Shown piece by piece: positions 17,282-32,519 of a stretch of 33,800 nucleotides of DNA (position 1 is its first letter; every line of letters begins with the position of its first letter). Under the pieces are notes generated by a model. It saw nothing but the letters and a program-made list of their open reading frames with translations. It was not told the origin of the DNA and did not search any database. The stretch spans positions 1 to 33,800 of the forward strand of contig JANYIJ010000199.1 of assembly GCA_025362095.1 (NCBI GenBank). Reading direction: 5' to 3'. The translations under genes and the position numbers were made by a program. Origin of the DNA: Gemmatimonadota bacterium (GTDB taxonomy: Bacteria; Gemmatimonadota; Gemmatimonadetes; Gemmatimonadales; Gemmatimonadaceae).

Positions 17282-17756
17282 TCGCGGATTCGTCGCGCCG
17301 GTCGTCGAGGTTGGCCTCGACCTGCGCCGCGGCGGGTTCGCCCGCAGCCGCCGCTTTGTCGTCGCGGGATTTCCGTCGGCGCCTGCGCCCTTCGCCGAAT
17401 TTCTTCGCGCCCCACGCGATGCCGTCCATCGCCATTCCGCCGACTTCGACCACCGTCTCCACGCGGCGATGAACTTTCCCAAGCAGATCGTTGAACTCGT
17501 CCACGCGCTCTCCGAACTCCGCGATGCGACGATCTAACGCTGCGTGCGCACGTTGCACACTGCGCCGGACGGCGAACATCGCCACGACCAGCCCGGTAAT
17601 CAGCAGCAGCACCAAGAGCGTGGAAATGCCGGAGGCCACGAATACGACCTGCTCGAACCACGTGCGCACCGGCGGCACCTGCCGCGTGATCACCGTGTCG
17701 TGCGCCGCGACCGCCTGCAGGAGAAACCGTGCCGCAGTACTCGCGAGAATCGTCAT
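17229..17756 (-). CDS. Single-pass membrane protein of unknown function
   Basis: The 175-residue product is not assigned to a family. It has one clear transmembrane helix (about residues 37-62, with the run TLLVLLLITGLVVAMFAV). A likely coiled coil follows (about 65-105, ALDRRIAEFGERVDEFNDLL-like), then a conserved-looking segment VGGMAMDGIAWGAKKFGE and a highly charged, disordered C-tail. The layout resembles small DUF948-type envelope proteins, but I would not name it as one. It precedes the phospholipase-like gene, overlapping it by 53 bp, so the two are probably co-expressed. Confidence 0.7.
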   Translation of the reverse strand: MTILASTAARFLLQAVAAHDTVITRQVPPVRTWFEQVVFVASGISTLLVLLLITGLVVAMFAVRRSVQRAHAALDRRIAEFGERVDEFNDLLGKVHRRVETVVEVGGMAMDGIAWGAKKFGEGRRRRRKSRDDKAAAAGEPAAAQVEANLDDRRDESANDDERDSPYDDSRGRKK

Positions 17757-19882: not shown

Positions 19883-19969
19883 TTGCCGCAGGTGTGCGCG
19901 GGTCACCGCGGGTAGCGATGCTCAAGACAACCCGCGCGTTCCCGCGAAGACCCGCGGCAAGGCTTTTTT
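19883..19969 (+). terminator. Long structured terminator after murA-pgeF
   Basis: TTGCCGC (19883-19889) pairs with GCGGCAA (19954-19960), followed by GGC and a six-T run (19964-19969). Inside, GCGCGGGT (19896-19903) pairs with ACCCGCGC (19930-19937). CGCGGGT (19907-19913) can instead pair with ACCCGCG (19950-19956). An A-rich tract precedes it right after the pgeF stop. The arms can fold in more than one way. Confidence 0.6.
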
Positions 19970-19981
19970 GTAGTTGTTCGC

Positions 19982-20023
19982 GCGATGGGGTAGTGGGTCA
20001 GTTGACCCACTACCCGCGATGGG
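19982..20023. repeat. Perfect 13-bp palindrome flanked by an 8-bp direct repeat
   Basis: GGGTAGTGGGTCA (19988-20000) and TGACCCACTACCC (20003-20015) form a perfect inverted repeat with a two-base centre. GCGATGGG occurs on both sides (19982-19989 and 20016-20023), sharing two bases with the left arm. It ends seven bases before the -35 box of the rimP promoter, a fitting place for a regulator. It could also be a cruciform or remnant of a small palindromic element. Confidence 0.8.
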
Positions 20024-20029
20024 ATCGGC

Positions 20030-20058
20030 TTGACGAGACCCCCATCCGCAACTATGAT
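20030..20058 (+). promoter_or_regulatory. Sigma-70-type promoter of the rimP-nusA-infB operon
   Basis: TTGACG (20030-20035), a 17-bp spacer and TATGAT (20053-20058) match 5/6 of the consensus at each box, the best promoter in the window. Transcription should begin near 20065, giving a leader of about 87 nt before the rimP GTG, which contains the terminator at 20096-20125. Confidence 0.8.
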
Positions 20059-20095
20059 TAAGTAGCTGAACGATTTCGTGCTGGTCGTCGGCGAG

Positions 20096-20125
20096 ATGTG
20101 GGGGAAGTTCTCCCCACATTTTTTT
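20096..20125 (+). terminator. Intrinsic terminator inside the rimP leader (probable attenuator)
   Basis: ATGTGGGG (20096-20103) pairs perfectly with CCCCACAT (20112-20119), with an 8-base loop and an unbroken T-run at 20119-20125. It lies downstream of the promoter and 26 bp upstream of the rimP start, so it must be bypassed for the operon to be expressed. GCGAG just before it (20091-20095) can pair with CTCGC just after it (20129-20133). Confidence 0.8.
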
Positions 20126-20151
20126 GTCCTCGCAAGTAACGCGGAATCGAC

Positions 20152-20628
20152 GTGAAGCAAACACTGGAACCGATTGTGGTTGCTGAACTTGACTCGCTTG
20201 GATTTGATCTTGTCGAACTCAAGGTTGGCGGCAGCAAAGGACGTCCGATTTTGGACGTCCGCATAGACCGGCGTGACCTCGAAAAGGTCACCGTTGGCGA
20301 TTGTGAAAAAGCATCCCGCGCGATCGAACTCAGGCTCGACGCGATGCCGGATGCGATTGCCGGACGCTACGTGCTCGAAGTGTCGTCGCCGGGAATGGAG
20401 CGGCCGCTGAAGTCCGCCGCCGACTGGCGGCGCTTCGCGGGACGCTCGGCAAACGTGAAGAGTTCGCGATTCGCCGCGATCGGCGGATACGCGGAAGTCG
20501 AGATCGTCGCAGTGCTGGGAGAACAAGGTCACGAGCAATATCAGGTGCGTGACCTCAAGGGAAATGAGATCACATTGGCGCCGGCGGATGTTCAGGAAGC
20601 CCGCCTCGCGTTCCACTGGAAACCGTAG
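20152..20628 (+). CDS. rimP: Ribosome maturation factor RimP
   Basis: The 158-residue protein matches RimP (YhbC/YlxS): an N-terminal alpha/beta domain with LGFDLVELKVGGS and LDVRIDR, the signature YVLEVSSPGMERPL, and a C-terminal SH3-like barrel. It helps assemble the 30S subunit. The start is GTG at 20152, preceded by a weak purine stretch (GCGGAA). It is the first gene of the translation operon and, with nusA nine bases downstream, follows the order common in bacteria. Expression likely depends on read-through of the leader terminator. Confidence 0.95.
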   Translation: MKQTLEPIVVAELDSLGFDLVELKVGGSKGRPILDVRIDRRDLEKVTVGDCEKASRAIELRLDAMPDAIAGRYVLEVSSPGMERPLKSAADWRRFAGRSANVKSSRFAAIGGYAEVEIVAVLGEQGHEQYQVRDLKGNEITLAPADVQEARLAFHWKP

Positions 20629-20637
20629 GAGTCCAGG

Positions 20638-21978
20638 ATGGCTGGTTCGACGGAAATTCTCACCGCGATTCGCGAGCTCTCGAATCTCAAACAGATCGAG
20701 CGCTCGGAACTTCACGAGCTGCTGCAGGACGGCATCCACGCCGCCCTCGCAAAAAAGCATGGTCCTACTGTGCAGGCCGAAGTCGACATCGATGACGACA
20801 AGGGTGACATCCGCATCGTCCTCCTGAAGACCGTCGTCGAAACCGTCGCCGACCCTGCGCGCGAGATCACGCTCGAGGAAGCGCGTTTCGAAGATCCCGA
20901 CTATCAGGTCGGCGATCTCATGGAAATTCCTGTCGACTTCGCCGAGTTCGGACGCTCGGCGGTGCAGGCGGCCAAGCAGCGCATCATCCAGCGCGTTCGC
21001 GAAGGCGAGCGCACCAAGATTCGCGACGAGTTCAACGACCGCGTCGGCGATCTGCTCTCCGGAGAAATCCAGCAGATCGAGCGCGGCAAGATCGTCGTCA
21101 TGCTGAACAAGTTCCGCGAAGCCGAGGCGATCATCCCGTATCGCGAGCAGAATCACCGCGAGGATTACAAGCAGGGTGAACCGATTCGCGCTGTGCTGAA
21201 AAAAATCGAAGAGACGCCCAAGGGACCGCGCCTCGTGCTCTCGCGCGGCGATGCGATGTTCGTGAAGGCGCTGTTCAAGCTCGAAGTGCCCGAGATTCAG
21301 CAGGGCATCGTCGAGATTCGCGCGTCGTCGCGCGAGGTTGGCAGTCGCACGAAGATCGCGGTCTTCTCGAAGGATGATTCGATCGATCCGGTGGGCGCCT
21401 GCGTGGGGCTCAAGGGCTCTCGCGTGCAGGCAGTGGTGCAGGAACTCGGCGGCGAACGCATCGACATCGTGCCATGGTCGTCGGATCCGGAGCGCTTTGC
21501 GAAGCTCGCGCTCGCGCCGGCGAAAGTCGCCCGGGTGTTCAGCGAAGCCGCGACGAAAACGATTCAGGCCGTGGTCGACGAAGACCAGCTTTCGCTCGCG
21601 ATCGGCCGCAACGGCCAGAACGTGCGTTTGGCGTCGGAACTCACCGAGTGGAAGATCGATCTATACTCGAGCCGCGAGTGGCTGGAGCGTGGCGGCGATG
21701 CGCCGTTGTTCGCGCCGCTGCCCGAGGAAGATGGCGGCGAAGAAGCAGCCGACGTGAAGCTCTCCGACATCGAGGGACTTCCGCCGGCCACCGTGGCCGT
21801 GCTCGAAGCGGGCGGCTACAAGACGCTCAACGACATCATCGATCTCGAGCGCGAGGACTTCCTCAAGCTCGCCGGCATCGCGCCGGAAGAAGCCGATCGC
21901 TTGATGGCGTTCATCAACGAAGTCACCGGTGATGACGGTGCGGATGCTGCGGCGCCAGAGGGCGGCGCAGCGGCGTAA
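20638..21978 (+). CDS. nusA: Transcription termination/antitermination factor NusA
   Basis: The 446-residue protein has the NusA layout: N-terminal RNA-polymerase-binding domain (1 to about 125), S1 domain (about 135-200, with GEIQQIERGKIVV), KH1 (GACVGLKGSRVQAV, about 253-266) and KH2 (LAIGRNGQNVRLA, about 320-332). A helix-hairpin-helix region near the C-terminus (about 375-430) follows an acidic linker, with a short Ala/Gly tail at the end. NusA slows RNA polymerase, enhances hairpin termination and joins antitermination complexes. The start is supported by AGGAG upstream of the ATG. Because NusA strengthens intrinsic terminators, the terminator in its own operon leader suggests feedback control (inference). 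Confidence 0.97.
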   Translation: MAGSTEILTAIRELSNLKQIERSELHELLQDGIHAALAKKHGPTVQAEVDIDDDKGDIRIVLLKTVVETVADPAREITLEEARFEDPDYQVGDLMEIPVDFAEFGRSAVQAAKQRIIQRVREGERTKIRDEFNDRVGDLLSGEIQQIERGKIVVMLNKFREAEAIIPYREQNHREDYKQGEPIRAVLKKIEETPKGPRLVLSRGDAMFVKALFKLEVPEIQQGIVEIRASSREVGSRTKIAVFSKDDSIDPVGACVGLKGSRVQAVVQELGGERIDIVPWSSDPERFAKLALAPAKVARVFSEAATKTIQAVVDEDQLSLAIGRNGQNVRLASELTEWKIDLYSSREWLERGGDAPLFAPLPEEDGGEEAADVKLSDIEGLPPATVAVLEAGGYKTLNDIIDLEREDFLKLAGIAPEEADRLMAFINEVTGDDGADAAAPEGGAAA

Positions 21979-31416: not shown

Positions 31417-32466
31417 ATGGCCACCGCGACGAAAGAGGATGTGATTCGCCTGACGCAGTTCGCGCGCTGCGCGGGCTGCGCTGCGAAAATGGGACCAGGC
31501 GATCTCTCCGCCGCGCTCGCGCCACTGGAGCGCCGCACGGATCCGCGCATTCTGGTCGGGCGCGAAACGTTCGATGACGCCGGTGTTTATCAGCTCACGC
31601 CGGAACTCGCGCTCGTGCAGACACTCGATTTTTTCGCGCCGATCGTCGATGATCCGTACGACTTCGGCCGCGTCGCGGCGACCAACGCGCTGTCAGATGT
31701 GTTCGCGATGGGCGGCGAGCCGATCACCGCGATGAACATCGTCGGGTTTCCAGTCGGCCAGCTTCCGCTCAGCGCGCTCACCGACATGCTGCGCGGTGGG
31801 CAGGACGCGGTGCACGACGCAGGCGCTCATATCATCGGCGGCCACACCATCACCGATGAAGAACTCAAGTACGGGCTCTCCGTGACCGGCACGATCCACC
31901 CGCAGCGCATTCTCACGAACGCCGCTGCGAAACCCGGCGACGCGCTCGTGCTGACGAAAGCGATCGGCACCGGAATTCTTTCGACCGCTGCAAAGCGCGG
32001 TGCTCTCGGAGCCGCCGCCCAAACGGCACTCGTGAAGTCGATGACCACGCTCAATGCCGCCGCGAGCCGCGCAGCAATGGCGCTCGGCCTCGAGTGCGCC
32101 ACTGACGTCACGGGTTTCGGTCTGCTCGGACACGCGTCGCACGTCGCGCGCGCGAGCAATGCGACACTCGTGATTCACGTGTCGAAGGTGCCGCTCCTTC
32201 TTGGCGCGCGCGACGCGCTCGCCGCGGGCGCGCTCACGGGCGGCGCAGCCCGGAACGATACGTATCTGGAACCACTGGTGAACTGGGGGCGTACCACGAC
32301 GGAAGAACGTGCATTCCTCGTCGATCCTCAAACTTCCGGCGGACTGTTGGTCGCTGTCCCGCAGAGCAAACTTTCGGATTATCTCAGCCGCGTCGACGGC
32401 GCCGTGCAGATCGGCGAAGTGCGGGAGCGTTCTCATTCTGGTGAATGGCTCAGTCTTCAAAACTGA
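31417..32466 (+). CDS. selD: Selenide, water dikinase (selenophosphate synthetase)
   Basis: The 349-residue SelD makes selenophosphate, the selenium donor for selenocysteine, from selenide and ATP. The N-terminus reads RLTQFARCAGCAAK, giving C21 and K24 at the places of catalytic Cys17 and Lys20 of E. coli; this is a Cys rather than a Sec form. Further marks are QTLDFFAPIVDDPYDFGRVA, TNALSDVFAMGG, IIGGHTITDEE, CATDVTGFGLLGHA and PQTSGGLL. The ATG has CGGGGA upstream. The family-conserved part ends near QIGEV. The last 14 residues (336-349) and the TGA are encoded by the first 44 bases of the tRNA-Sec gene. No SECIS-like use of that TGA is apparent. Confidence 0.96.
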   Translation: MATATKEDVIRLTQFARCAGCAAKMGPGDLSAALAPLERRTDPRILVGRETFDDAGVYQLTPELALVQTLDFFAPIVDDPYDFGRVAATNALSDVFAMGGEPITAMNIVGFPVGQLPLSALTDMLRGGQDAVHDAGAHIIGGHTITDEELKYGLSVTGTIHPQRILTNAAAKPGDALVLTKAIGTGILSTAAKRGALGAAAQTALVKSMTTLNAAASRAAMALGLECATDVTGFGLLGHASHVARASNATLVIHVSKVPLLLGARDALAAGALTGGAARNDTYLEPLVNWGRTTTEERAFLVDPQTSGGLLVAVPQSKLSDYLSRVDGAVQIGEVRERSHSGEWLSLQN

Positions 32467-32519
32467 TGCGACCTGACGACGTCGGGTTGGGTGGGTTCGA
32501 TTCCCATACGCTCCCGCCA
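32423..32519 (+). tRNA. selC: tRNA-Sec (anticodon TCA)
   Basis: The 97-nt gene folds as a bacterial selenocysteine tRNA. The 8-bp acceptor stem is GGGAGCGT (32423-32430) with ACGCTCCC (32508-32515), then discriminator G and an encoded CCA (32517-32519). The 6-bp D stem TCATTC/GAATGG has the tiny loop TGGT. The 5-bp anticodon stem TCAGT/ACTGA has loop CTTCAAA, with TCA at 32457-32459. The long variable arm CGACCTGA/TCGGGTTG pairs over 8 bp (with G-U pairs), and the T arm is GTGGG-TTCGATT-CCCAT. The 8+5 acceptor/T layout is the bacterial Sec type. It overlaps selD by 44 bp on the same strand. Confidence 0.97.

Follow-up and report, generated by a model that had tools for sequence, protein, structure and literature searches.

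Organization of the rimP-nusA-infB locus

The window, i.e. the whole stretch of 33,800 nucleotides analysed here, originates from a Gemmatimonadaceae MAG (2.99 Mb, contig 48) and carries, in this order, genes encoding MurA, PgeF, RimP, NusA, IF-2, TruB, RibF, and SecD. Protein family models bore out the identities of RimP, NusA, and IF-2 that had been proposed in an earlier note made from the sequence alone. The named relatives of the window NusA were Gemmatimonadota, mostly Gemmatimonadaceae. A selenocysteine tRNA was also found at positions 32423-32515 (Rfam RF01852, 77.4 bits). The features of the leader and of the operon are as follows:

20030-20035, + strand: -35 hexamer TTGACG, read from the sequence; TTGAC[TGC] is kept at a constant distance in relatives
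20053-20058, + strand: -10 hexamer TATGAT after a 17-bp spacer, read from the sequence; position conserved in relatives
20065, + strand: putative transcription start, about 7 nt past the -10 hexamer, placed from the promoter position
20065-20092, + strand: 5' hairpin, designated H1; arms 20065-20069 and 20071-20075 with 20083-20092
20096-20119, + strand: terminator hairpin; arms 20096-20104 and 20111-20119, loop 20105-20110
20119-20125, + strand: T tract (7 T), predicted termination point, read from the sequence; T tract conserved in the alignment
20152-20628, + strand: rimP, first gene of the operon; GTG start at 20152, RimP models, PF02576 at 20188-20400
20638-21978, + strand: nusA, proposed source of the feedback factor; TIGR01953, 379 bits
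22352-25153, + strand: infB (IF-2), downstream gene of the operon; TIGR00487, 790 bits

The promoter described in the earlier note matched the sequence base for base, as did the 8-bp hairpin, the run of seven Ts, and the distance of 26 bases (20126-20151) between the T tract and the GTG codon of rimP. The stem of the terminator, in which ATGTGGGG (20096-20103) pairs with CCCCACAT (20112-20119), comprises eight Watson-Crick pairs and one G-U pair, with a folding energy of -13.5 kcal/mol (z -3.1), and was the longest terminator-like match in a 10-kb stretch. The leader has a total length of about 85 nt, with about 60 nt up to the end of the terminator, and a 65-nt leader segment folded with a z-score of -3.85. 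Within the same 10 kb, the number of promoter-like matches (one, at this site) was equal to the average of 1.0 in shuffled sequences, and was thus not significant by itself. It is the comparison across relatives that establishes both the promoter and the hairpin as real.

Two repeats were observed upstream of the promoter. An imperfect palindrome of about 86 nt (TTGCCGCAGGT...ACCCGCGGCAA, positions 19883-19968), flanked by A and T runs, resembles a REP or MITE-like repeat located between pgeF and the rimP promoter, and is able to fold into a strong terminator. Four or more further copies were present elsewhere in the genome and one in the sister genome G011, with none in the other relatives searched. 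The second repeat, a perfect 13-bp inverted repeat (GGGTAGTGGGTCA-GT-TGACCCACTACCC, positions 19988-20015), ends 14 bp 5' of the -35 hexamer; no second copy was found in the genome, and it may represent an operator or a hairpin. At the equivalent place upstream of the rimP promoter, locus L011 (genome G014) carries a different long inverted repeat, which is absent from G009 and G011. The region just 5' of the rimP promoter is thus a possible insertion hot spot.

Conservation of the promoter and terminator

NusA was detected in 112 of the 119 relatives, and about 1 kb of sequence 5' of nusA was sampled from 108 genomes. The genome set consisted of drafts or MAGs throughout; genomes devoid of both NusA and RimP were counted as assembly gaps, not as losses, and in one case (G007) the leader was located on a different contig. 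Promoters with at least 9 of 12 matches were present in 29 of 68 relatives, versus 0.57 expected, and the -10 hexamer mostly ended 30-39 nt 5' of the terminator stem. Among the first 80 loci, a hairpin followed by a T tract was observed 5' of rimP in all except L018, which lies at a contig end; at L071 and L073, the search pattern missed or misplaced the hairpin, and the sister-family form was recognised by eye. Only L147 among the later loci was without a pattern-detected hairpin, yet it has a run of nine Ts. Overall, the promoter-terminator pair was present in nearly every assessable relative.

The family consensus of the terminator is AATGTGGGGgaGgttCCCCACATTTTTTTgTTCT. Across 56 distinct versions of the stem, pairing was retained in 503 of 503 cells, versus 48-77% in slid controls; this figure is partly obtained by construction, as hairpins were chosen by their pairing pattern, although almost no locus was dropped for lacking one. 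Double-sided changes were found at four stem pairs (A-U to G-C, U-A to C-G, and G-C to C-G), such that the covariation check across relatives proposed in the earlier note did reveal compensatory changes. Moreover, the GGG/CCC pairs were invariant in the 56 sequences, indicating that the sequence of the stem is conserved beyond its pairing.

In the sister family f2, the stem is partly of the form GCGGGCGAAGTTCGGCCCGC-[GA]-CTTTTTTTT, and a covariance model of this form (R2) gave strong matches in about 23 further genomes. At five f2 loci (L072, L080, L082, L085, and L086), a terminator with eight Ts directly adjoins the ATG codon of rimP. This arrangement leaves no space for a Shine-Dalgarno sequence and places the hairpin inside the ribosome footprint.

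A covariance model of the window form (R1) matched exactly once in 49 of the 70 relatives and in 100 of the 249 Gemmatimonadota genomes; since only the top first-look candidates were scored in each genome, weak extra copies could escape these counts. In the compared genomes that were not used for training, the match again lay directly 5' of RimP, e.g. in G137 (match at 17428 of contig C86, RimP at 17547) and in G151 (match at 1491025 of contig C1, RimP at 1490924, minus strand). As judged from these sequence matches, the terminator motif is specific to the rimP-nusA-infB operon. The proposal of an attenuator in the leader of this operon, as put forward in the earlier note, is thus supported by the phylum-wide conservation of promoter and terminator, by covariation, and by the single match per genome. 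The related statement that transcripts of the whole operon must cross the terminator also held, as the promoter lies at a conserved distance between pgeF and the terminator.

A variable 5' hairpin precedes the terminator

The segment between the putative transcription start and the terminator, usually 22-30 nt long, folds as a hairpin. This structure, H1, had been overlooked in the earlier note, whose description of the leader was otherwise correct for the promoter and the terminator. H1 and the terminator arms have no positions in common, and H1 is absent in those f2 members in which just a few nt precede the stem. Sequences of H1 were too diverged in the MAFFT alignment for covariation analysis, and dinucleotide shuffles and half-swaps were used instead. 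In 37 genus representatives, the summed folding energy of H1 was -438 kcal/mol, versus -311 kcal/mol (sd 13) in shuffled sequences (z -9.9), whereas the hairpin of the window by itself gave a modest z-score of -1.8. When halves of the hairpin were swapped between genera, the stability was abolished (native -430, swapped -302, sd 15; z -8.5), which argues that the pairing is selected while the sequence drifts.

The terminator is retained in front of nusA after loss of rimP

Eleven f2 genomes were found to have no rimP at this locus (L124, L129, L131, L133, L135, L136, L138, L139, and L142-L144), and all of them keep the terminator directly 5' of nusA. The hairpin is located 89-209 nt 5' of nusA, a gap too small for a RimP gene, and the reading frames present in this gap were unrelated in the eight loci that were read through. 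The terminators are of the GTGGGG/CCCCAC or GTCGGG/CCCGGC type, with a T tract, and promoter-like sites with 8-9 of 12 matches were present upstream in the nine loci scored. The RimP_N domain (PF02576), which is present in 141 of the 163 genomes of the order, was not found genome-wide in the listed rimP-less genomes (90-99% complete; G101 is not listed by name). The 30S maturation factor RimP is missing from these nearly complete genomes in spite of its wide conservation.

According to the NusA tree, rimP was lost independently at least twice, with both losses forced by well-supported branches: once within genus g40, in which G091 and G115, the remaining members, retain rimP, and once in a clade formed by g48, g54, g56, g57, and g60. 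Related genomes are not independent, and genus-level tests and the NusA tree correct for kinship only partly. The retention of the terminator after loss of rimP indicates that the element tracks nusA (and infB), not rimP, and that RimP is not a necessary factor in these genomes.

Relationship to known leaders of nusA operons

Attenuators upstream of rimP, designated rimP-leader, were the most often found and most ubiquitous of those predicted by Naville and Gautheret (2010; PMC2965389), who described a conserved GGGc...gCCC stem located 4-130 nt before the start codon, with no antiterminator in most species. The window element shares with this class a terminator placed between the promoter and rimP at a distance within this range (26 nt), a G-rich 5' arm, a C-rich 3' arm, a T tract, and the lack of an antiterminator. 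It differs in that the family of the window has GTGGGG...CCCCAC, in which GGG...CCC is kept and the c...g pair is absent; the exact GGGC...GCCC stem is present in f2, and likewise in the leader of E. coli (GGGCTTTAGGCCCTTTTTTT). Based on position, arms, and specificity, i.e. on sequence criteria, the window element belongs with the rimP-leader attenuators. The attenuator proposed in the earlier note is therefore supported, but is not of a new kind. Compared with the rimP-leader, the additional characters are H1, a T tract abutting the ATG codon in part of f2, and a leader retained after loss of rimP; of these, H1 and the retention are the new points.

Both RimP and NusA were considered as the factor acting on the rimP-leader in 2010, and the choice was left open (PMC2965389). 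In B. subtilis, NusA is autoregulated through NusA-stimulated termination in its own leader (Mondal et al. 2016, as cited in PMC12288461), which is about 180 nt long (PMC2965389). The leader described here resembles this attenuator in that it contains an intrinsic terminator, in cis with nusA; it differs in its length (about 85 nt) and in that NusA autoregulation, established in B. subtilis, is here a proposal. Repression of the operon by NusA has been reported in E. coli, as cited in PMC2965389. In the gbs0413-gbs0418 operon of S. agalactiae, termination was mapped by RNA-seq 31 nt past the start of the rimP operon, and NusA feedback was proposed (PMC4448216). The leader described here is similarly very short, with termination soon after the start, but its termination point is predicted and H1 precedes the terminator. 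A literature search for transcription-start data for Gemmatimonas found none.

Proposed mechanism and alternative explanations

We consider it probable that the leader acts as an attenuator of nusA operon transcription, at which NusA-stimulated termination would provide negative feedback, the NusA step being inferred. RNA polymerase would start near position 20065, and the first 28 nt or so would fold into H1. The probable role of H1 is either to hinder base pairing between the 5' end and the terminator or to make the read-through mRNA more stable. The next 24 nt would form the intrinsic terminator, which ends in U7; near position 20125, many polymerases would be expected to halt. Termination at this site is presumably partial. 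NusA bound to the polymerase would stimulate termination, such that read-through into rimP-nusA-infB would decrease when NusA is abundant and increase when it is scarce. NusA thus appears to be the best explanation for the factor tuning termination in the leader. This feedback gains support from the retention of the leader in rimP-less genomes, the absence of RNA-switch signals (see below), the precedent of B. subtilis, and the proposals made for E. coli and S. agalactiae.

NusA-dependent terminators of B. subtilis tend to be weak. The effect of NusA might therefore be small here, because the hairpin and the U-tract look strong. Retention of the leader with nusA would be equally expected if the factor is not NusA, or if control is directed at IF-2, because infB follows nusA. 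An unlikely alternative is that the attenuator is regulated by a different factor (RimP, IF-2, NusG, or some other RNA-binding protein), which recognises the conserved sequence of the stem: the invariant GGG/CCC pairs suggest recognition, and RimP was among the candidates of Naville and Gautheret. In genomes that have the leader but no rimP, RimP cannot be a required factor, and elsewhere control has been established for NusA only.

It is quite improbable that the hairpin is a plain, unregulated terminator, which would stop read-through from pgeF or set a fixed low level of operon expression. This explanation would fit the strength of the terminator and the presence of pgeF upstream on the same strand, ending just 5' of the promoter in sister genomes. 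It is at odds with the position of the promoter between pgeF and the terminator, which makes operon transcripts cross the latter, and with the occurrence of a single stem of this type in each genome, confined to this operon; in the window, another palindrome able to form a terminator already lies 3' of pgeF.

Control by a leader peptide, a riboswitch, or an antiterminator is very improbable: the sole candidate leader-peptide ORF (MWGKFSPHFF...EST*, 20096-20155), which runs into the start of rimP both in the window and in close relatives, is not constant within the family in frame, length, or end; searches of Rfam, both at the gathering cutoffs and at more relaxed ones, returned only chance microRNA-like matches to palindromes, with no riboswitch or T-box; and the 5' segment paired with the 5' arm of the terminator no better than shuffled sequences (mean z -0.3), with no excess or alternative pairing. 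An amino-acid leader peptide and an antiterminator in the usual sense were thus rejected, and the absence of a leader peptide and of a known riboswitch, already noted from the sequence, was confirmed. With none of these three elements found, the simplest interpretation is a protein that affects termination.

The NusA feedback leader may also be viewed, more tentatively, as a two-hairpin structure (a variable H1 and a conserved terminator) that might serve as the nusA autoregulatory site throughout Gemmatimonadota, reporting free NusA, outliving rimP, and having its stem sequence read by NusA.

The two natural losses of rimP in which the leader was kept argue against RimP as the factor, and point to NusA or to the genes after it. 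The leader is compact, with about 60 nt to the end of the terminator, and is thus suited to in vitro testing. NusA feedback at this site would extend a mechanism known from B. subtilis to the Gemmatimonadota, bacteria of soil and water.
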